This document shows, piece by piece, positions 1 through 40,877 of a DNA stretch of 64,000 bases (the stretch's first letter is position 1; each line of letters starts with the position of its first letter). This stretch comes from Herbaspirillum robiniae (GTDB taxonomy: Bacteria > Pseudomonadota > Gammaproteobacteria > Burkholderiales > Burkholderiaceae_D): contig NZ_NJGU01000010.1 of NCBI RefSeq assembly GCF_002213415.1, positions 186,001 through 250,000 of the forward strand, in the 5' to 3' direction. A program made the translations under genes and the position numbers. A model generated the notes under the pieces. It saw nothing but the letters and a program-made list of their open reading frames with translations. It had not been told where the DNA came from and did not search any database.

Positions 1-289
1 GCGCATGCGAGACCAGCAGGTGGCCCAGCCCGAGCGCGAAGGGGCGCGGATGCGGATGCAACCAGCCGATGATGCCGCCCGCGCTCAAGGCCAGCACGGC
101 GCTCAGGCCCGCGCCGACGGCCGCCTTCTTGACTTTGAAATCGCCCTTGAACCACAGGTGCAGCAGCAGGGCGGGGAGCGCCCACACCAGCCACTCGGCC
201 AGAAACACCGCCAGGTGGCTGCGCCAGCCGCCGGGGTGGCCGGCGCCGCTGTTGAGAAGGAGAAACAGTTGCTGATTGAGTTGTTCCAT
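1..289 (-). CDS. PAP2-family phosphatase, N-terminal part (YbjG/BcrC-like)
   Basis: Partial gene: only the first 96 residues lie in the window, and the rest continues past position 1. The start is ATG at 289. The visible part has a hydrophobic segment around residues 30-45 and another around 55-72, followed by HPHPRPFALGLG, which resembles the RPF-containing first phosphatase motif of the YbjG/BcrC group. Members of that group dephosphorylate undecaprenyl diphosphate at the periplasmic face and recycle the lipid carrier for cell-wall synthesis; some related PAP2 enzymes act on lipid A. The PSGH and SxxxH motifs would lie outside the window, so activity cannot be judged. It is divergent from the cluster starting at 475 and has its own regulator box and -10 at 318-349. 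Confidence 0.72.
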   Translation of the reverse strand, partial: MEQLNQQLFLLLNSGAGHPGGWRSHLAVFLAEWLVWALPALLLHLWFKGDFKVKKAAVGAGLSAVLALSAGGIIGWLHPHPRPFALGLGHLLVSHA

Positions 290-317
290 GCCGTGACTAC
301 CATTGATGACAACCGCC

Positions 318-349
318 AGCATAGGTCGCCAGACTTAGGCCTTCCTGAG
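318..349 (-). promoter_or_regulatory. Putative response-regulator box plus -10 of the PAP2 gene
   Basis: Read on the minus strand, CTCAG-N6-CTAAG occupies 349 to 334 (11-bp direct repeat, one mismatch from CTAAG in the first half). After exactly 10 bp comes TATGCT (323 to 318), a plausible -10 hexamer. The arrangement matches the boxes at 389-420 and 10217-10248. Activator-dependent control by an OmpR/PhoB-family regulator is inferred. Confidence 0.5.
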
Positions 350-388
350 GGATGACCCGCAGGGCCGCGGCGGTCGCGCCGCGCCCGC

Positions 389-420
389 CTAAGTCAAGGC
401 TAAGTCAGCCGCTCTAGGAT
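389..420 (+). promoter_or_regulatory. Putative response-regulator box plus -10 of the decarboxylase cluster
   Basis: CTAAGTCAAGGCTAAG at 389-404 is a perfect 5-bp direct repeat with an 11-bp period. TAGGAT, a possible -10, starts 10 bp later at 415-420. No good -35 hexamer is visible, as expected for a promoter in which a bound activator replaces it. The start codon of the first cluster gene is at 475. The spacing is the same as in the sites at 318-349 and 10217-10248. Confidence 0.52.
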
Positions 421-474
421 CCGCACAACGACAAGACGGCTTCGATTCGGTCGGACCAAGCGCAAGGAACATAC

Positions 475-1983
475 ATGGATGCACCCGGCAATGATTGGCA
501 GAGCCCGCTGGATCCGCGGGACTGGGGCGAGTGGCGGCGGCAGGGGCATGCCATGCTGGAGGATATGTTCGATTTTCTCGAACGCATGTCCGGCGGCGAA
601 GGACCTGTCTGGCAGCCCATTCCGGCATCCGTGCGCACGGCGATCGCCGAGCCGCTGCCGCAGGAGGGCTGCTCGCTGGAGCAGGCCTATGGCCTGTTCC
701 GGGACAGCATTCTTCCCTACGCCGTGGGCAACGCGCATCCCGGTTTCATGGGCTGGGTCCATGGCGCCGGCACCCCGGTGGGGATGCTGGCCGAGATGCT
801 GGCCGCCGGCCTCAACGCCAACCTGGGCGGGCGCGACCACATGCCGGTGGAGCTCGAGCGCCAGGTCGTGCGCTGGGTGCGCGACCTGTTCGCGTTTCCC
901 GACACCGCCAGCGGCGTGTTCGTCACCGGCTCATCGATGGCCAATTTCCTGGGCGTGCTGGTTGCGCGGAGCAGGGCGCTGGGACCGTCGGTGCGCACCG
1001 ACGGCATGCAAGGGCAGGGCGGCGGCGCACTGGTCGCCTATGCCTCGCGTGCGGCGCATGCCTGCGTCGCGCGGGCGATGGACCTGGCCGGCCTGGGCAG
1101 CGCAGCCCTGAACCTGATCGACGTCGACGGCAGCGGCGCCCTCGATGCCGATGCGCTGGCGTCGGCCATCCGCTGCGACCTGCGGCAGGGGAGCCGGCCG
1201 TTTCTTCTGGTCGGCACCGCCGGCTCGGTGGATACCGGGGCCATCGACGATCTCGCCGCGCTGGCCGACATCGCGGCCCGACACCGCCTGCATTTTCACG
1301 TCGACGGCGCATTCGGCGCGCTGGGCATGCTCGCCGCGGATCTGGCGCCCATGCTGGGCGGCATCGAGCGGGCCGACTCCATCGCCCTGGATTTCCACAA
1401 GTGGATGCATGTGCCCTATGACGCGGGGTTCATCCTGGTGCGGGACGGCAAGCATCACCTTGCCGCCTTCGACGGCGGCGCGCACAGCTACCTGGCCCGC
1501 GAGCCGGGCGGCATGTCGGCCGGCTCGCCCTGGCCATGCGACTACGGGCCGGACCTGTCGCGGGGATTCCGGGCATTGAAGACCTGGATGACCTTGAAGG
1601 TCTATGGCGCCCGGCGCCTGGGGGCCGCCATTTCGGACAGCTGCGAGCGCGCCCGCCACCTGGGCGAACTGGTCAGGCGGCAGGCCGAGCTGGAGTTGAT
1701 GGCGCCGGTGCACCTGAACATCGTCTGTTTCCGTTTCCGCGCGCCGGAGGGGATCAGCGACGAGCTCAATTCGCGTCTGTTGCAAGCCATACAAGGCTCC
1801 GGGATCGCCGCCCCGTCGTCCACGCGCATCGACGGGAAATACGTATTGCGGGCGGCGCTGTTCAATCACCGCACCGGTCGCGCCCAGCTGGCGGGGCTCA
1901 TCGACGCCGCCCTCGTCCACGGGCGCGCCCTCCTGGCCGAACTGGCCCGACAGGAAACGACAGGAACCGATAGGAACCGATAG
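475..1983 (+). CDS. PLP-dependent group II amino acid decarboxylase-like protein
   Basis: This 502-residue protein belongs to the fold-type I, group II decarboxylases (aromatic amino acid, glutamate and diaminobutyrate decarboxylase superfamily). Visible signatures are NAHPGFMGW near residue 85, the glycine/serine phosphate-binding stretch FVTGSSMANF near 145, HVDGAFGA near 278 with the aspartate that pairs with the pyridine nitrogen, and ALDFHKWMHVPYDAG near 305 with the lysine expected to hold PLP. It would remove the carboxyl group from an amino acid to give an amine; the substrate cannot be read. AAGGAA lies 5 bp before the ATG. It is the first gene of a cluster with an ATP-grasp ligase, a second PLP enzyme and an ABC transporter. 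Its last codons run into a 10-bp tandem repeat. Confidence 0.85.
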   Translation: MDAPGNDWQSPLDPRDWGEWRRQGHAMLEDMFDFLERMSGGEGPVWQPIPASVRTAIAEPLPQEGCSLEQAYGLFRDSILPYAVGNAHPGFMGWVHGAGTPVGMLAEMLAAGLNANLGGRDHMPVELERQVVRWVRDLFAFPDTASGVFVTGSSMANFLGVLVARSRALGPSVRTDGMQGQGGGALVAYASRAAHACVARAMDLAGLGSAALNLIDVDGSGALDADALASAIRCDLRQGSRPFLLVGTAGSVDTGAIDDLAALADIAARHRLHFHVDGAFGALGMLAADLAPMLGGIERADSIALDFHKWMHVPYDAGFILVRDGKHHLAAFDGGAHSYLAREPGGMSAGSPWPCDYGPDLSRGFRALKTWMTLKVYGARRLGAAISDSCERARHLGELVRRQAELELMAPVHLNIVCFRFRAPEGISDELNSRLLQAIQGSGIAAPSSTRIDGKYVLRAALFNHRTGRAQLAGLIDAALVHGRALLAELARQETTGTDRNR

Positions 1984-2020
1984 GAACCGATAGGAACCGA
2001 TAGGAACCGATAGGAATAGC
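1951..2020 (+). repeat. Decanucleotide tandem repeat spanning a stop codon and the next ribosome binding site
   Basis: Seven consecutive 10-bp units: two diverged (1951, 1961), four perfect TAGGAACCGA (1971-2010) and one partial (2011-2020). The decarboxylase stop TAG is at 1981-1983, inside the array, and the ATP-grasp gene starts at 2023. Each unit holds AGGA, so the array is a series of Shine-Dalgarno-like sites; the last, at 2012-2015, is correctly spaced for the ATG at 2023. Copy number may vary by slippage. Confidence 0.9.
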
Positions 2021-2022
2021 AC

Positions 2023-3261
2023 ATGCAGGAATTACTGACGGCGCTGGAGTTCGTTCCCGGTTCGCCCTTCCAACTCGGCCTGGAGACGCTGCTGCACGCG
2101 GCCTTTCTCGGCATCGACCTCAATCCCCTGGGCAACCGGCTCATCGCGCACCTGGCGCAGTTTCCCGAGGATGCGGTGCGCTACATGGACTTGTCGTTCG
2201 TGCTGCAGATCGGCGGCAACGAGAGCATGGCGGCCACCCTCCAGCGCGAAGCGCTGAGGCTGCAGCGCCATTTCCTGCTGCCGACGGCCGCAGGCGAACC
2301 GGCGCTGCGCCTGCTGGCGATCATGGCGCCGGGCAATTTCATGGCCAATACGCCGCTGGAGTTCCTGGTCTCCAGGGGCGACATCGCGCTGGAAGCGCTC
2401 TACGTCATGCCGGGGGAGCCGCTGCCGGAGCAGCTGCCGCCGCACGACGTGCTGTTCGTCGCTGTCGGCGAATCGGCCTCGACCCGGGACCTCCTGGCGG
2501 ACCTTTGCGCAGCCGTCGGGCACTGGAAGGCGCCGCTGCTGAACCATCCCATGCATTCCCTCTGCCTGGCGCGCGACACCGTTTCCGTCATCCTCAATGA
2601 CGCGCAGGCGATCCAGTTGCCCCTGACCGCGCGCCTGTCGCGGCGTGAACTCGAACAGCTCGCCGGCGGCGAGCCGGAGCGCGACTTCCTGGCCGACGCC
2701 GCCTGGCCGCTCATCGCAAGACCGCTGGACTCGCATGCCGGCAAGGGCCTCGAGAGGCTGGACGACCGCGCGGCATTGCAGGCCTATCTCGCGCGGCACG
2801 AGGGCGTTCCCGAGTTCTATCTCTCCAGCTTCGTGGACTATCGCAGCGGGGACGGGCTGTTCCGGAAGTACCGGATCGTCCTGATCGAAGGCGTCCCCTA
2901 CCTCTGCCACATGGCTATCTCCTCGCACTGGATGATCCACTACCTGAACGCCGACATGACCGAAAGACCGGAGCGGCGCGCCGAAGAGGCGCGCGTCATG
3001 CTGGATTTCGAGAACGGGTTCGCGCGCCGGCACAGGCAGGCCTTCGCCGAACTGCACCAGGCTTTTCCGCTGGACTATTTCGGCATCGATTGCGCCGAGA
3101 CCGCCGATGGGAGCTTGCTTGTCTTCGAGGTGGACACCGGCATGATCGTGCACGCGATGGATCCGGTGGACATGTTCCCCTACAAGCACGCGGCGATGCG
3201 CAAGGTGTTCGACGCTTTCCAGCGCATGGTTCGCAAGGCCGCCGGAAGCGCCCATGCATAA
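2023..3261 (+). CDS. ATP-grasp family ligase-like protein
   Basis: 412 residues. The C-terminal half reads as an ATP-grasp domain: ARPLDSHAGKGLERLDD (about residues 230-247) matches the glycine-rich nucleotide-binding loop, FRKYRIVLIEGVPYLCHMAIS (about 284-304) the central strand pair, and FGIDCAETADGSLLVFEVDT (about 353-372) the metal-binding acidic strand near the end. ATP-grasp enzymes join a carboxylate to an amine through an acyl phosphate. The N-terminal 200 residues are not recognised; a Rossmann-like pre-ATP-grasp domain around 95-190 is likely. Given its neighbours it could link the decarboxylase product to another acid. The next gene overlaps it by 8 bp. The family is fairly sure; the reaction is unknown. 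Confidence 0.75.
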   Translation: MQELLTALEFVPGSPFQLGLETLLHAAFLGIDLNPLGNRLIAHLAQFPEDAVRYMDLSFVLQIGGNESMAATLQREALRLQRHFLLPTAAGEPALRLLAIMAPGNFMANTPLEFLVSRGDIALEALYVMPGEPLPEQLPPHDVLFVAVGESASTRDLLADLCAAVGHWKAPLLNHPMHSLCLARDTVSVILNDAQAIQLPLTARLSRRELEQLAGGEPERDFLADAAWPLIARPLDSHAGKGLERLDDRAALQAYLARHEGVPEFYLSSFVDYRSGDGLFRKYRIVLIEGVPYLCHMAISSHWMIHYLNADMTERPERRAEEARVMLDFENGFARRHRQAFAELHQAFPLDYFGIDCAETADGSLLVFEVDTGMIVHAMDPVDMFPYKHAAMRKVFDAFQRMVRKAAGSAHA

Positions 3262-4621
3262 GCTCGATACGATCTCCCGGCTGCTGGTGCAGGGCGGCGA
3301 CGCGCGGACCACCCTGGCGCCCGACACCGGCGTCAACCGTTACGGGGTGAGCCCCGGCCCGCGCAGCGGGCAGGTCGAGTTCTCGTCGTCGACGGCTTCC
3401 CACATCGCGCCGCAGGCATGGTTCGCGGTCGAGCGTTTCCGCACGCGCATCAATGCCGACCTGGCGCAAGGCTGCGCGGCGGACCTGTGGCAACGTGAAG
3501 AACGACGCATCCGCAAGGCGTTTGCGCAGATCTGGCAGCTCGACGAAGCGCGCCTGCAATGGAGCCTGCAGCGCTCCGGCACGCACGCCCATGCGCTGGC
3601 CAGCGCGCTGGCATACCGCAAGTTCGGCCGGCCGTTTCGCATCGTCATGGGCGAGTTCTCCGAGACCGGAAGCCAGGTGTCCCTGGCCCTGCTCAAGGGC
3701 AGCCGCCGCAATGGCGAGAACATGGCCGATATCCGGGAGGTCCCGGTGCGCAACCTCGACGGCTCCGCGCGCAGCGTCAAGGCGGTCGACCAGGATTTCT
3801 ACCGCGCCATCGCCGAGGCGCTGGCGGAGGACCTGCCGGTGCTGGTGGTGCGGGTCGCCGAGTCAAAATCGGGGAGCATCTTTCCCAGCCTGGACCTGCT
3901 CAGGATGTTTACCGGGCGCTCGCCCGGGAGCGTGGCCGGCCTTGTCGATTGCGCCCAGCTGCGCTGCGGCGCTGCGGAGCTGGCGGACTATCTCGCGGCG
4001 GGCTTCATGGTGGCCGTGACCGGCTCCAAGTTCTATGGCGCACCCGCCTTCTGCGGCGCGCTGCTGGCCGGCGACCAGTGGCAGCAGGCATGGCCGGCCG
4101 CCAGTGTGGACGTGGACGAAGGCGGCCGCCCGAACTTCGGGCTGCTGGCGCGCTGGGAGGCGGCGCTGTTTACGATGAGCCGGTTTCAGCGGGTCCCCGG
4201 CGAGATGCGGGAGCGGATCACCGGCAGGTTCCAGCACGCCGTGATGCAGGCGACGGCCGAGATCGGCGCCGTCTCCCTGCTCGACGTGATCCGGGACGGC
4301 CGGCGCGAGCCCCGCAGCCTGTTCGCGATCCGCTGCACGCATCCCGGCACCGGCCGCAGCCTCTCGCACGAAGAGGTGGACCTCGTCTACCGCCGCATGC
4401 GCGAGCGGGAGCAGGGCAACGGCAGCCGTTATGTCCTCGGCCAGCCGGTCGCCTGTGGCGGAAAAGACTATCTGCGCACACAATATCTTCGCCTGAGCCT
4501 GTCGGCGCACATGCTGATCGACGCATGCCGGCTGCCCGACGGCGACAGCGAAGGCTGGCTGCAATCCGAGGTGTCCTTCGCCCTGCACGCGCTCAACGAG
4601 GAGATCGCACGACTGCCATGA
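3254..4621 (+). CDS. PLP-dependent class V aminotransferase-like protein
   Basis: 455 residues with features of fold-type I PLP enzymes close to class V (cysteine desulfurase/aminotransferase fold). The strongest sign is AVTGSKFYGAPAFCGALL at about residues 254-271, where the lysine of SKFYGAP is in the place of the PLP lysine; GLVDCAQLR about 20 residues before it resembles the conserved acidic strand. The substrate-binding part and product are not recognisable. It starts inside the end of the ATP-grasp gene (8-bp overlap) and ends with an ATGA overlap with the ABC ATPase, so the genes are translationally coupled. It probably modifies an amino acid or amine intermediate of the same pathway as its neighbours, which is inference. 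Confidence 0.72.
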   Translation: MHKLDTISRLLVQGGDARTTLAPDTGVNRYGVSPGPRSGQVEFSSSTASHIAPQAWFAVERFRTRINADLAQGCAADLWQREERRIRKAFAQIWQLDEARLQWSLQRSGTHAHALASALAYRKFGRPFRIVMGEFSETGSQVSLALLKGSRRNGENMADIREVPVRNLDGSARSVKAVDQDFYRAIAEALAEDLPVLVVRVAESKSGSIFPSLDLLRMFTGRSPGSVAGLVDCAQLRCGAAELADYLAAGFMVAVTGSKFYGAPAFCGALLAGDQWQQAWPAASVDVDEGGRPNFGLLARWEAALFTMSRFQRVPGEMRERITGRFQHAVMQATAEIGAVSLLDVIRDGRREPRSLFAIRCTHPGTGRSLSHEEVDLVYRRMREREQGNGSRYVLGQPVACGGKDYLRTQYLRLSLSAHMLIDACRLPDGDSEGWLQSEVSFALHALNEEIARLP

Positions 4622-5247
4622 CCAACCCAGAACACGTATCGCCGGCGCCCGACGTGGCCGCCGCGCGGCTGCAGGCCTGCGACCTCGCCTCCGGGCTGGT
4701 CGGGCCGGTCAGCTTCCTGCTGGCGAAGGGACAATGCCTTTGCGTGACCGGCCCCTCGGGCGCCGGCAAGACGCGGCTGCTGCGCCTGCTTGCCGACCTC
4801 GACGAAGGACGCGGGGAGGTCTTCCTCGACGGCGTCGCGCGCAGCGCCTTCACGGCGCCGCAGTGGCGCGCCAGGGTGCTCTACCAGGCGGCCGAGTCGA
4901 GCTGGTGGCTGCCCAGCGTGATCGCGCATTTCCGGCCGGAGCAACACGACGAGGCCGTGCAGCTGGCGTCGCGCCTGGGACTGGGCGCGGAGCGCCTGGC
5001 CGCCGACGTCACGCAACTGTCCACCGGCGAACGCCAGCGGGCGCTGCTGGTGCGCTCGCTGCTGAAAAAGCCGGACGTCCTGTTGCTGGACGAGCCCTCC
5101 AGCGCCCTGGACGCCGGCAACGTCGCCCGCATGGAGGCGCTGCTGCAGGAGAAGATGCAGGGCGGATTGGCCATGCTGCTGGTCACCCATTCCCGCGAGC
5201 AGGAAACCCGCCTGGCCGACGGCGCCATCGCCCTGGAGAAGAGATGA
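4618..5247 (+). CDS. FetA-like ABC transporter ATP-binding protein
   Basis: 209 residues, the short length typical of FetA/YbbL-type ATPases. Walker A is GPSGAGKT (about residues 45-52), the signature LSTGERQR (about 138-145), Walker B VLLLDEPSSALD (about 160-171) and the H-loop LVTHS (about 193). It starts within the stop of the PLP enzyme (ATGA) and overlaps the permease gene in the same way, so the two form one transporter. In E. coli, FetAB exports iron and protects against peroxide. Here the linked biosynthetic genes suggest export of their product or a metal complex of it. Confidence 0.85.
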   Translation: MTNPEHVSPAPDVAAARLQACDLASGLVGPVSFLLAKGQCLCVTGPSGAGKTRLLRLLADLDEGRGEVFLDGVARSAFTAPQWRARVLYQAAESSWWLPSVIAHFRPEQHDEAVQLASRLGLGAERLAADVTQLSTGERQRALLVRSLLKKPDVLLLDEPSSALDAGNVARMEALLQEKMQGGLAMLLVTHSREQETRLADGAIALEKR

Positions 5248-6047
5248 GCACCATGTCCCCCCTTGCGCTGTCGGCCACGGACCTGGCCTTGTCGGCGGTG
5301 CTGGTGCTGGCCAACGGCATCGCCTCGGTAGTGCTCGGCCTGCAGGTGCACAAGTCCCTGGCGGTGGCCGCGGTGCGCATGGCGGCGCAACTGCTGCTGG
5401 TCGGCCTGGCGCTGCGCTGGATCCTCGGCAGCCAGTCGCCCCTGATGACCGCATTGGCGGTGCTGGCGATGATCGCCGCCGCCGCGAGGGAAGTCGCCAG
5501 CCGGCCGCGCCATCCCTTGCGCGGCTGGGCCGGCATGCGGATCAGCCTGACGGTGGTGAGTGCGGCCTCCATCCTGACGGTGGCGCTGGCGCTCACGACC
5601 GCGATACGGCCCACGCCCTGGTATGACCCGCGCTATGCGATTGCGCTGATGGGAATCGTGCTCGGCAGCGTCTTGAATTCGGCCAGCATTTCGCTGGATG
5701 CCTTCCTCTCCGGGGTGCGCCTGGCGGCGCCGTCGATCGAGGCCCGCCTGGCCCTGGGCGAGAGCAGGCATGAGGCGATCCGGCCGCAGATGATCGCCTC
5801 CATCCGAAGCGGCATGCTGCCGGTGATCAACCAGATGTCGGCCGCCGGCATCATCACCTTGCCGGGGATCATGACGGGCCAGATCCTGGCCGGCATGGAT
5901 GCCCTGGAGGCCGCCAAGTACCAGATCCTGCTGATGTTCATCCTGGCCGGCGCCAGCGGCCTGGCGGCCTATGGCTGCGTGATGCTGGCCGCGTCGAGGG
6001 TGACCGACGCCCGGCACCGGCTGCGGCTGGACCGCATCCGGGCCTGA
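5244..6047 (+). CDS. FetB-like (UPF0014) ABC transporter permease
   Basis: 267 residues, hydrophobic throughout, with six to seven likely membrane segments. ALMGIVLGSVLNSASISLDAFLSGVR (about residues 133-158), the following LALGESRHEAIRP, and LPVINQMSAAGIITLPGIMTGQILAGMDALEAAKYQI match the conserved core of the FetB/YbbM family. It is the membrane half of the transporter whose ATPase precedes it with an ATGA overlap. The family is known for iron export. Coupling to two PLP enzymes and an ATP-grasp ligase is unusual for FetAB and suggests a different or extended role. Confidence 0.85.
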   Translation: MSTMSPLALSATDLALSAVLVLANGIASVVLGLQVHKSLAVAAVRMAAQLLLVGLALRWILGSQSPLMTALAVLAMIAAAAREVASRPRHPLRGWAGMRISLTVVSAASILTVALALTTAIRPTPWYDPRYAIALMGIVLGSVLNSASISLDAFLSGVRLAAPSIEARLALGESRHEAIRPQMIASIRSGMLPVINQMSAAGIITLPGIMTGQILAGMDALEAAKYQILLMFILAGASGLAAYGCVMLAASRVTDARHRLRLDRIRA

Positions 6048-6116
6048 TCTTTCCCTGATCCATCCCTGAGTTCAACCCTGATTCACCTCGGAACCATCTA
6101 CCTGTCTGCCGTCGAA

Positions 6117-6554
6117 ATGAACACTGTCTTGTCGCTGCTGAACCAACGCGGACTCCGTCCCACCGTCGCGCGTATGCAATTGCTGTCCGCCCTGGAGGGA
6201 GGCGGTCATGAGCGGATGACCGCCGAGCAGATCTACATGAGGATCGCCAACGACGGCGCCTCGGTGAGCCTGGCGACCGTCTACCGGGTGCTCAAGGAGT
6301 TGAGCCGATATGGGCTGGTGGAGCGCGGCTGGTGCCAGGATGGACAAGAGGTGAGGCTGCTGTTTTCAAAGCGCCGCGCCGAGATGCGCGATCCCGAGCC
6401 GGAGATGTTCTGCGTCTCCTGCCGTCGCAGCATGACCGTCGGCATGCCGGCATTGCGCGCCGAGCTCAATCGCCTGGCGGTGAAGCACAAGCTGCAGCCG
6501 CAGGATCGGGCCATCGTGATCCATATCACCTGTCCGGCCTGCGCGAAGGGCTGA
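6117..6554 (+). CDS. Fur-family transcriptional regulator with altered metal-sensing site
   Basis: 145 residues. The N-terminal winged helix is clear (RGLRPTVARMQLLSAL, MTAEQIYMRI, VSLATVYRVLKELSRYGLVER). Two structural-zinc pairs are present, CVSC (about 97-100) and CPAC (about 140-143). The histidine-rich HHDH stretch that normally precedes the first CxxC in Fur, Zur and PerR is absent; the sequence there is EMRDPEPEM. The domain is therefore probably folded by zinc but senses something else, or nothing. It follows the FetB-like gene by 69 bp in the same direction, likely in the same unit, and a strong terminator follows. No clear Shine-Dalgarno precedes the ATG. Confidence 0.85.
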   Translation: MNTVLSLLNQRGLRPTVARMQLLSALEGGGHERMTAEQIYMRIANDGASVSLATVYRVLKELSRYGLVERGWCQDGQEVRLLFSKRRAEMRDPEPEMFCVSCRRSMTVGMPALRAELNRLAVKHKLQPQDRAIVIHITCPACAKG

Positions 6555-6607
6555 GGGCGGCAGACCACGTCGTCGGGAAACAGCGGCCGGCAACGTCGGC
6601 AACAAAC

Positions 6608-6646
6608 GAAAAAGGCTTGTATGGATCTCCATACAAGCCTTTTTTC
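6608..6646. terminator. Bidirectional rho-independent terminator
   Basis: A near-perfect hairpin with 12-bp arms (GGCTTGTATGGA and TCCATACAAGCC) is flanked by A-runs on the left and T-runs on the right. It can end transcription of the Fur gene from the left and of the porin gene from the right. Confidence 0.9.
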
Positions 6647-6683
6647 ATGCGAGCCCTGCGCGGCAGGACTCGCAGCCACAGCG

Positions 6684-7844
6684 TCAGAACTTGTGACGGA
6701 TGCCGACGGCGACGGCGGTCTGGCTGGCGTCGGCGCCGCCGATGGCGGCATTGCCGGTGGCGTCGCCGAACACGCCGGAGTTGGCCATGTCGGAGGCGCG
6801 GATGTTGGCCACGAAGGCGTACAGGTCGGTGCGCTTGGACAGGAAGTAATCCGTGCCCAGGCTGATCTGGGTCAGCTTGCCCTTGGCGGACGAGTTGAAG
6901 TCGGCGCGGCTGTGGGTCACGGCGCCCAGCAGCTTGAGCGACGGCGTCAGCGAGTAGGCGGTGCCGATTTCATAGATATCGACCTTATTGGCGCTGGCCA
7001 GGGTCTTGGAGGCGAGGGCGGTCGGCGAGCCCGTGTTGAGGTCTTGCTTCACGCGCGAATAGTTGCCGTACACGCGCGCCGCGCCGAACTGGTAGCTGGC
7101 CGCCAGGGTCAGCACCTTGAACGCGCTGTTGCCCGACTGGGTCACGTCGCCGGCGCCGGTGGTGCCGACCAGGATGCTGGTGTCGGCGGGAGTGGCGCCC
7201 TGCTTGGACTGGTAGTAGTTCAGGCCCAGTCCCAGCGGACCGTTGTCGTACTTGCCGCCGATGTTGAAGGCTTGTCCGGCCGAAGTCTGGCCGGCCTGCT
7301 CGCCGAAGCCGTACATCAGGTTGCCGGTGAAGCCGGCGATGCTGTTGGTGGTGTAGGTGATGGCGTTGTTGGTGCGGGTGCCTTCCAGGCGGTCCAGGTT
7401 ATGGCCCACCGCGCCGGTCACGCCGAAGAAATCGCCCACCGAGGTGTACGACGAGATGACGTCCGCGTAGTCGGTATTGCGACCCAGCAGCACGGTGCCG
7501 AAGTTGCCGGCCAGGCCGACCACCGATTTGCGGCGGAACAGCGTGTTGCTGGTCTTGGAGTCGTCCAGCGCGCCGGTGTCGTTCTTGAAGCCGGTCTCCA
7601 GGTTGAACACGGCCTTCAGGCCGCCGCCCAGGTCTTCCGCGCCCTTGAAGCCGATACGCGAACCTTGCATGATGCCCGAGTTGATGCCGAACTTGCTGCC
7701 GGTTCCGGTGCCGGTGGCGTTGACCGCCTTGCTGGTATAGACGACGCCGGTGTCGACGATGCCGTAGATGGTGACGCTGCTTTGTGCCTGGGCGGCACCC
7801 GCGAAAGCGCCGAGAACAGCCAGTGCAAGCATGGATTTTTTCAT
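6684..7844 (-). CDS. Gram-negative trimeric porin (Burkholderiales OmpC-like)
   Basis: 386 residues. The signal peptide is MKKSMLALAVLGAFAGAAQA with cleavage after AQA, followed by QSSVTIYGIVDTG, the first beta strand typical of betaproteobacterial porins. Further strands include SRIGFKGAEDLGGGLKAVFNLETG (about residues 57-80) and the protein ends in GIRHKF, with the terminal phenylalanine needed for outer-membrane insertion. It would form general diffusion channels. The ATG at 7844 has AGGAAG 6 bp upstream; a longer reading frame upstream is discarded because it precedes the signal peptide. It stands alone and ends at the bidirectional terminator. Confidence 0.93.
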   Translation of the reverse strand: MKKSMLALAVLGAFAGAAQAQSSVTIYGIVDTGVVYTSKAVNATGTGTGSKFGINSGIMQGSRIGFKGAEDLGGGLKAVFNLETGFKNDTGALDDSKTSNTLFRRKSVVGLAGNFGTVLLGRNTDYADVISSYTSVGDFFGVTGAVGHNLDRLEGTRTNNAITYTTNSIAGFTGNLMYGFGEQAGQTSAGQAFNIGGKYDNGPLGLGLNYYQSKQGATPADTSILVGTTGAGDVTQSGNSAFKVLTLAASYQFGAARVYGNYSRVKQDLNTGSPTALASKTLASANKVDIYEIGTAYSLTPSLKLLGAVTHSRADFNSSAKGKLTQISLGTDYFLSKRTDLYAFVANIRASDMANSGVFGDATGNAAIGGADASQTAVAVGIRHKF

Positions 7845-10216: not shown

Positions 10217-10248
10217 CTAAGGCTGCGCTAAGTCGGCGCTTCCATGCT
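10217..10248 (+). promoter_or_regulatory. Response-regulator box plus -10 of the DUF347 gene
   Basis: CTAAGGCTGCGCTAAG lies at 10217-10232, and 10 bp later CATGCT (10243-10248) resembles a -10. Geometry is identical to the sites at 318-349 and 389-420. The DUF347 start codon is 35 bp downstream of the hexamer. Confidence 0.5.
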
Positions 10249-40516: not shown

Positions 40517-40877
40517 TGGTGGAGGCGGCGGGAATCGAACCCGCGTCCGCAAGCACTCTACAGACAGTTCTACATACTTAGTGCTGTCATTTGATTTAAC
40601 CCGGCCGCCGCGGACGCACACGCTGCGGAAAGGCTAGTCACCTAAGATTTAACCCCGGTTCAAGTGACCCGTTCCGAGGCGATTCTCTGTAAATGACTCC
40701 ACTGCTGTTGCCAGCCCACCCCAGAGACGAGATGGTGTGGAGCTAACCGCGATTAAGCGGCCAGTGCGTACGAGTTATCGTTAGCAGTTATTTACGTTCT
40801 GACTGTATTTACGAGGTAATCAGGCCTCGGTATGCCCTGCGCTGCTTTGCAACCCACGTCGAAACCAAGTCGCCCCC
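40517..40877 (-). ncRNA. ssrA: Transfer-messenger RNA (tmRNA)
   Basis: A one-piece tmRNA of about 361 nt. The 5' end reads GGGGGCGACTTGGTTTCGAC (from 40877) and the 3' end GGTTCGATTCCCGCCGCCTCCACCA in sense, with the T-arm and an encoded CCA at 40517. The tag reading frame at 40785-40753 encodes ANDNSYALAA followed by TAA. tmRNA rescues stalled ribosomes with SmpB and marks the unfinished protein for ClpXP through the C-terminal ALAA. The 5' end is placed by analogy with other tmRNAs. Confidence 0.95.

Follow-up and report, generated by a model that had tools for sequence, protein, structure and literature searches.

A conserved enzyme trio from a Herbaspirillum robiniae operon and its flagellar neighbourhood in other genomes

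Near the start of a 64,000-nucleotide stretch of the Herbaspirillum robiniae genome (contig NZ_NJGU01000010.1, positions 186,001 to 250,000; hereafter the window) lies an operon of six genes, and the locus raises the question of which of these genes form a conserved system and what that system might make. Three of them, the trio, encode enzymes. The first, DEC (475..1983, + strand), encodes a group II pyridoxal phosphate (PLP) decarboxylase; the second, ATPG (2023..3261, +), encodes a short tetratricopeptide repeat (TPR)-like N-terminus joined to a RimK/LysX-type ATP-grasp domain; and the third, here called PLP (3254..4621, +), encodes a fold-type I PLP enzyme of the class V superfamily. The other three genes encode a FetA-like ATP-binding cassette (ABC) ATPase, a FetB-like permease and a Fur-family protein. 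A first-pass annotation of the window had read the six genes as a synthesis and export cluster belonging to no named pathway. The synthesis part of that reading stands: no described pathway was matched, and no description of the trio was found in the one open-access paper library searched, which lacks most subscription papers.

The trio and its enzymes

A scan of genome contigs with an alignment of the PLP protein gave 369 loci encoding a relative, and the best 80 were kept. An open reading frame scan found DEC, ATPG and PLP together in 68 of these 80 loci, and by greedy gene calling the three lie on one strand in the order DEC, ATPG, PLP in 63; the gene calling missed some genes, e.g., the DEC of L002, and several contigs end early. 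In five loci trio genes are fused, DEC to ATPG in L004, L005, L037 and L052, and DEC to PLP in L073. The widely conserved system is the trio, not all six genes, and DEC-ATPG-PLP is a self-contained biosynthetic operon. The idea that the gene order would be kept elsewhere thus held for the decarboxylase, ligase and PLP enzyme, sometimes as fusions, and failed for the six-gene set, which was seen in two genomes. PLP relatives occur in Alpha-, Beta- and Gammaproteobacteria and in Geobacter-like genomes, with Methylococcales contributing 17 of the best 80 loci. Their presence is patchy: of 33 genus relatives, 9 carry PLP, and a phylum sample of 398 genomes gave 26 with the gene, one of these being a fragment. 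From the phylum sample, 23 of the 26 loci were fetched, the window's own genome, G043 and the fragment G290 being set aside, and the trio was present in 15 of the 23. G043, which is the same as L115, has the trio and no flagellar match.

The expected catalytic positions are conserved in all three enzyme families. DEC belongs to PF00282 (186.4 bits, cut-off 27), and the nearest solved sequence is 4obu, named a tryptophan decarboxylase (E 8.7e-55), others nearby being aromatic, lysine and diaminobutyrate decarboxylases. Residues K309, D277, H195, Y339, W94, N116, R120 and W353 are conserved in 67 of 67 aligned rows; we take K309, D277, H195 and the loop tyrosine Y339, located through alignments to 4obu and 6eei, to have their usual catalytic roles. 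In such enzymes a loop tyrosine goes with decarboxylation rather than aldehyde synthesis, and because the tyrosine is present in every row, DEC fits decarboxylation. The arginine R120, also invariant, might accommodate an acidic substrate. DEC proteins of the window's Herbaspirillum subclade share changes at otherwise conserved positions, e.g., Q312 to H, three residues past K309, which would allow a changed substrate.

ATPG has the RimK/GshB-type ATP-grasp fold with its three metal-ligand positions. None of the ATPG relatives tested reached the Pfam ATP-grasp cut-off, and ATPG scored 14.8 bits against the NCBIfam model rimK_fam, whose cut-off is 143.4. No ATPG match was found in phage records. 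Two genus relatives, L121 and L122, carry two tandem, more distant ATPG paralogs, with no DEC or PLP match in the fetched stretch.

The PLP protein has the overall class V fold. The window's protein had no match to PF00266 (class V aminotransferase), one of 25 family members matched it at E 0.0049, and none of the PLP relatives tested reached a Pfam PLP-enzyme cut-off. Profile alignments with the NifS/IscS, kynureninase and AGXT relatives in this genome were not usable; an EgtE-like relative alone aligned, weakly. A SufS-type cysteine desulfurase, in which a catalytic cysteine usually stands at a set spacing ahead of the substrate-binding arginine, was considered and rejected: the cysteine was invariant in 25 rows, but in the larger set C401 was present in just 70 of 81, and the sulfur-transfer mechanism was dropped because of this. 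The substrate-binding arginine, R413, is present in 80 of 81 rows. Residue 202 of the window's PLP, beside the invariant SK motif, is Ala, whereas 94 of 99 other rows, including the closest relatives, have Asp; from this change the window's enzyme may be altered or decaying. In Sulfuricella sp. T08 (L035:8932-11445) PLP is fused to an S-adenosylmethionine (SAM) methyltransferase domain. Six regions with more distant PLP relatives were fetched, of which L180, L181 and L183 are linked to nonribosomal peptide synthetase (NRPS) genes, L182 lies elsewhere and the other two were outside the analysis. In the three linked regions the PLP relative overlaps, or lies directly 3' of, an annotated NRPS, NRPS-polyketide synthase or AMP-binding gene, and two of them have a gene for a phosphopantetheinyl transferase further downstream. 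In L034, L050 and L070, too, PLP is preceded by a gene that resembles what we take to be the end of an NRPS.

Flagellar genes near the trio

New here is the observation that in other genomes the trio often lies inside flagellar loci; the first-pass annotation missed this place because it is seen in other genomes. Flagellar genes were found in the fetched flank of 35 of the 80 loci versus 1 of 37 control regions (Fisher p 2.4e-6, the loci not being independent), and near 6 of the 23 phylum-sample loci versus the same 1 of 37 (Fisher p 0.010, again with loci that are not independent). These counts are what remained of 41/80 and 8/23 after removal of loci matched solely by a model derived from methyl-accepting chemotaxis proteins (MCPs), namely L005, L024, L036, L053, L059 and L066 among the 80, and L143 and L144 in the phylum sample. 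The single control match, L187, is a genuine FliD. Pfam was run on one member of every recurrent neighbour group, and the proteins identified in this way include FlgA, FlgD, FlgE, FlgI, FlgM, FlgN, FlaG, FliC, FliD, FliS and FliT, as well as MotA, MotB, FlhA and rod proteins. The labels FlgH, FlgJ, FliA and some others were given by size and place only; L048 was counted on a FliA-type match of a group outside the Pfam check. The FliW and FlgL queries came from L042, a locus with a flagellin-domain gene and flgK near the trio, whose own place in the count rests on FlgK and on a flagellin match in Pfam.

The position of the trio within flagellar clusters varies among hosts. In Gallionella and others the arrangement is flgNM, trio, flgA-BCDE, and in Methylobacter, Sulfuricella and Sulfuriferula the trio lies near fliT, fliS, fliD, flaG and fliC. 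FlaG genes neighbour the trio in 13 of the 80 loci, standing directly before DEC in L055 and directly before PLP in L069, L071 and L074; flgM or flgN neighbour it in 11 of the 80. In L149 the genes on one strand run flgE, flgK, a FlgL-like gene, PLP, ATPG, DEC, fliC, fliC, the FlgL-like gene having no Pfam match, and L150-L153 are similar, with flagellins of 759 aa. When 106 PLP rows, 13 without a label, were placed on a FastTree tree, the flagellar label needed 10 changes, 7 of which were forced by starred branches. Flagellin itself is present in 34 of 35 PLP-bearing genomes versus 330 of 398 in the phylum sample, relatedness being uncorrected; among genomes at least 90% complete, the numbers are 30/30 and 283/338.

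Possible roles of the trio

The reading that we prefer, with a probability of about 0.4, is that the trio may be a flagellum-linked amide pathway, most likely for filament modification, which one Herbaspirillum subclade re-uses next to a PmrA-like two-component system. The basis is gene order, fusions, predicted folds, conserved catalytic positions and the flagellar neighbourhood elsewhere; from these we infer every reaction, product, attachment, control and export step. DEC would turn an amino acid into an amine by removing its alpha-carboxylate. ATPG would activate a carboxylate as an acyl phosphate and form an amide, its TPR-like part perhaps binding a protein partner or the product, and PLP would prepare or reshape an amino-acid building block. 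Many lineages would use these steps for the flagellum, most likely to make or attach an amide-linked decoration on filament proteins. The operon of the Herbaspirillum subclade stands away from flagellar genes, has gained a UPF0014 ABC transporter and an altered Fur-like protein, and is probably controlled by an adjoining PmrA-like two-component system. We doubt a more specific version, in which ATPG uses the DEC amine and the PLP building block to join a small molecule by an amide bond straight to flagellin or hook-junction proteins, no glycosyltransferase being needed, with subclade re-use for an exported compound under two-component control. If filament modification is correct, the trio would represent a type of flagellin modification independent of a conserved glycosyltransferase partner. 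Two enzyme families reaching no Pfam enzyme cut-off gain a testable role; flagellin chemistry bears on motility, on phage attachment and on recognition by plants and animals.

A number of observations weigh against a flagellar role. The window shows no structural flagellar gene around its trio, and neither do any of the 9 trio-bearing genus relatives fetched, so that location in flagellar clusters, expected of a flagellin-modification operon, was found elsewhere and not in the window. Among the best loci, 45 of 80 have no flagellar gene in the fetched flank, some because contigs end, and the matches are concentrated: many come from Gallionella and Methylobacter, and a single genus accounts for five of the six phylum matches. 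The control regions, 37 stretches of 19.9 kb at round-number positions in 8 PLP-bearing genomes, were unmatched to the hosts of the 80 loci, and the flagellar hidden Markov models were built from the tested loci themselves, which favours loci over controls. A search for a sigma-28 promoter before DEC in 92 loci, judged against mononucleotide shuffles and not assuming that every flagellin-modification operon has such a promoter, gave no general signal: a near-perfect site was found only in L055, the scores of L143 and L077 were slightly above the shuffles and the window's was not, and the distribution was otherwise shuffle-like. Known flagellin glycan loci, unlike the trio neighbourhoods, have glycosyltransferase or nonulosonate genes; no such enzyme was found among the 18 families matched by at least 2 of the 67 neighbours scanned, and a single GT2 gene lies near the trio, in L049. 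The genes flgM/flgN are about as frequent as FlaG, so the neighbourhood by itself does not separate the filament from regulation. Further, some PLP genes have no DEC or ATPG in the flank, and more distant PLP relatives (~29%) directly follow NRPS genes on Rhizobium/Sinorhizobium plasmids in 3 of the 6 fetched regions, because of which we take the PLP family to serve in natural-product synthesis as well.

The first-pass annotation had proposed a secreted metal-binding or stress-protective amide, which a FetAB-like transporter would export, the Fur-like protein acting as regulator. The six co-directional genes with their tight overlaps fit this proposal, as do the presence of the same six-gene set in WKF16 and the adjoining divergent PmrA/QseB-like two-component system, PAP2 phosphatase and RND pump, with a candidate operator between. 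But FetB-like genes follow PLP in 2 of the 80 loci, L004 and L005, with some other ABC ATPase in the flank of six further loci, and Fur-like matches are found in 0 of 80; export and metal binding are thus no general property of the system. Moreover, the window's two ABC proteins fall short of the FetA and FetB equivalog cut-offs, and no HHDH-type motif was seen in its Fur-like protein. We therefore hold a secreted metal-binding or protective amide to be unlikely as the general explanation, if the best placed of the three alternatives. Less likely again is a trio product that stays inside the cell as a signal or cofactor adjusting motility or chemotaxis, nothing being attached to filament proteins. 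This would agree with flgM/flgN beside the trio, with MCP, GGDEF, YcgR-type PilZ and CheB/CheR/CheD genes among the neighbours, and with the finding that no transporter or glycosyltransferase is regularly kept with the trio. It agrees less well with FlaG, which touches DEC or PLP in four loci, with filament-side genes being at least as frequent, or with enclosure of the trio between FlgL-like and flagellin genes in L149. That enclosed, one-strand position also speaks against a purely incidental neighbourhood, in which flagellar clusters are simply common landing places for horizontally moving operons. The patchy presence of PLP in the genus and the phylum and the varying neighbours are what incidental landing would produce, but the trio occupies different flagellar positions in separate clades and contacts FlaG in different hosts, and we consider this the least probable of the explanations. 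Overall we rank filament modification as most likely and a motility-related metabolite next; in the Herbaspirillum subclade the product is probably secreted.

The operon and its enzymes have partial parallels in known systems, two of which are precedents for ATP-grasp genes in flagellin modification. The methanofuran/methylofuran enzymes MfnA and MfnD, a decarboxylase followed by an ATP-grasp ligase, have the same chemical logic as the trio; DEC differs in scoring 63.5 bits against an MfnA cut-off of 299.4, and just 17 of the 80 loci are from Methylococcales. ATPG differs from the RimK/LysX/ArgX ligases in its TPR-like N-terminus and low rimK_fam score, and PLP differs from the class V enzymes NifS, C-DES, LolT, SufS and Egt2 in that the window's protein has no Pfam match and the SufS-like cysteine is not conserved. 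According to the accessible text of the paper on Shewanella oneidensis sfmABCDE, this flagellin-modification operon includes an ATP-grasp gene, sfmE, whose deletion causes a flagellin mass shift and reduced spreading; the operon also encodes a PseI-like protein, a reductase and a methyltransferase and has a predicted FliA site (PMC3765264). The sfm operon and the trio are both enzyme operons with an ATP-grasp gene, sfmE and ATPG being likened by the ATP-grasp family label only, and, unlike the trio, a decarboxylase or PLP is not mentioned in the accessible text (PMC3765264). The accessible portions of two papers on Clostridioides difficile describe an ATP-grasp gene in the type B flagellin locus CDR20291_0244-0247 and a peptidylamido glycan with taurine, alanine and glycine (PMC5207246, PMC5207245). 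That locus, as described there, is glycosyltransferase-based, with acyltransferase and ornithine-cyclodeaminase-like genes, and its likeness to ATPG is again by family label only.

The operon and its surroundings in the window

All six co-directional genes of the first-pass annotation were found again at their given positions, with overlaps of 8, 4 and 4 bp connecting four of them. After the trio come the lineage-specific additions, a FetA-like ABC ATPase (4618..5247, +; PF00005, 77.2 bits) and a FetB-like permease of the UPF0014 family (5244..6047, +; PF03649, 227.4 bits, cut-off 22.6), the latter the sole UPF0014 match in this genome, and then the Fur-family protein (6117..6554, +; PF01475, 52.5 bits, cut-off 23.1). 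FetAB-like genes after the trio were seen in four Herbaspirillum genomes, and all six genes in two, one of them WKF16 (L105); the transporter and the Fur-like regulator are local to a Herbaspirillum subclade. The window's FetAB-like pair resembles the FetAB iron exporter in combining an ABC ATPase with a UPF0014 permease and differs in equivalog scores, which are well below the cut-offs, 101.1 versus 292 bits for FetA and 90.8 versus 410 bits for FetB; the FetAB-like proteins of L004 likewise score far below both cut-offs. Metal-sensing Fur proteins usually have an HHDH-type sensory motif, which was not seen by inspection in the window's protein (DPEPEMF) or in that of WKF16 (RARPEIV); both retain two CxxC motifs.

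At the DEC/ATPG junction, a 10-bp tandem repeat of 7.0 copies (1947..2016, no strand) extends over the stop codon of DEC and the leader sequence of ATPG. AGGA, resembling a ribosome-binding site, is present in each of the seven copies, and the copy number could tune translation. No such repeat was seen at the DEC/ATPG junction of WKF16. A 16-pair hairpin 3' of the Fur-like gene (6609..6644, no strand), ahead of a converging gene that we take to be porin-like, is the probable end of the operon. Two terminator-like sites were found in positions 1-7000 versus 2.4 expected, the stem at 6609-6644 being by far the longer.

Upstream of DEC a divergent operon begins (1..322, -) and continues outside the window (L206). 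Its order, PAP2 phosphatase, PmrA/QseB-like regulator, QseC/PmrB-like histidine kinase, resistance-nodulation-division (RND) adaptor and RND pump, is identical in WKF16. The best model for the OmpR-family regulator is PmrA (235.8 bits versus a cut-off of 330). An 11-bp direct repeat, CTAAGTC-AAGG-CTAAGTC (389..406, +), is a candidate response-regulator site before DEC, with an inverted half-site at 332-340, and through it the PmrA-like system may control the operon. A search of 36 genomes found the exact pattern CTAAGTC-N4-CTAAGTC in 4, which all belong to one Herbaspirillum subclade. There is one copy before DEC in the window and one at the same place in WKF16; in two relatives, five and three tandem copies lie ahead of another OmpR-type regulator. 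A second site in the window, at 10217-10234, has one mismatch. Elsewhere in the window, a transfer-messenger RNA gene lies at 40517-40877 on the - strand, with the tag ANDNSYALAA.

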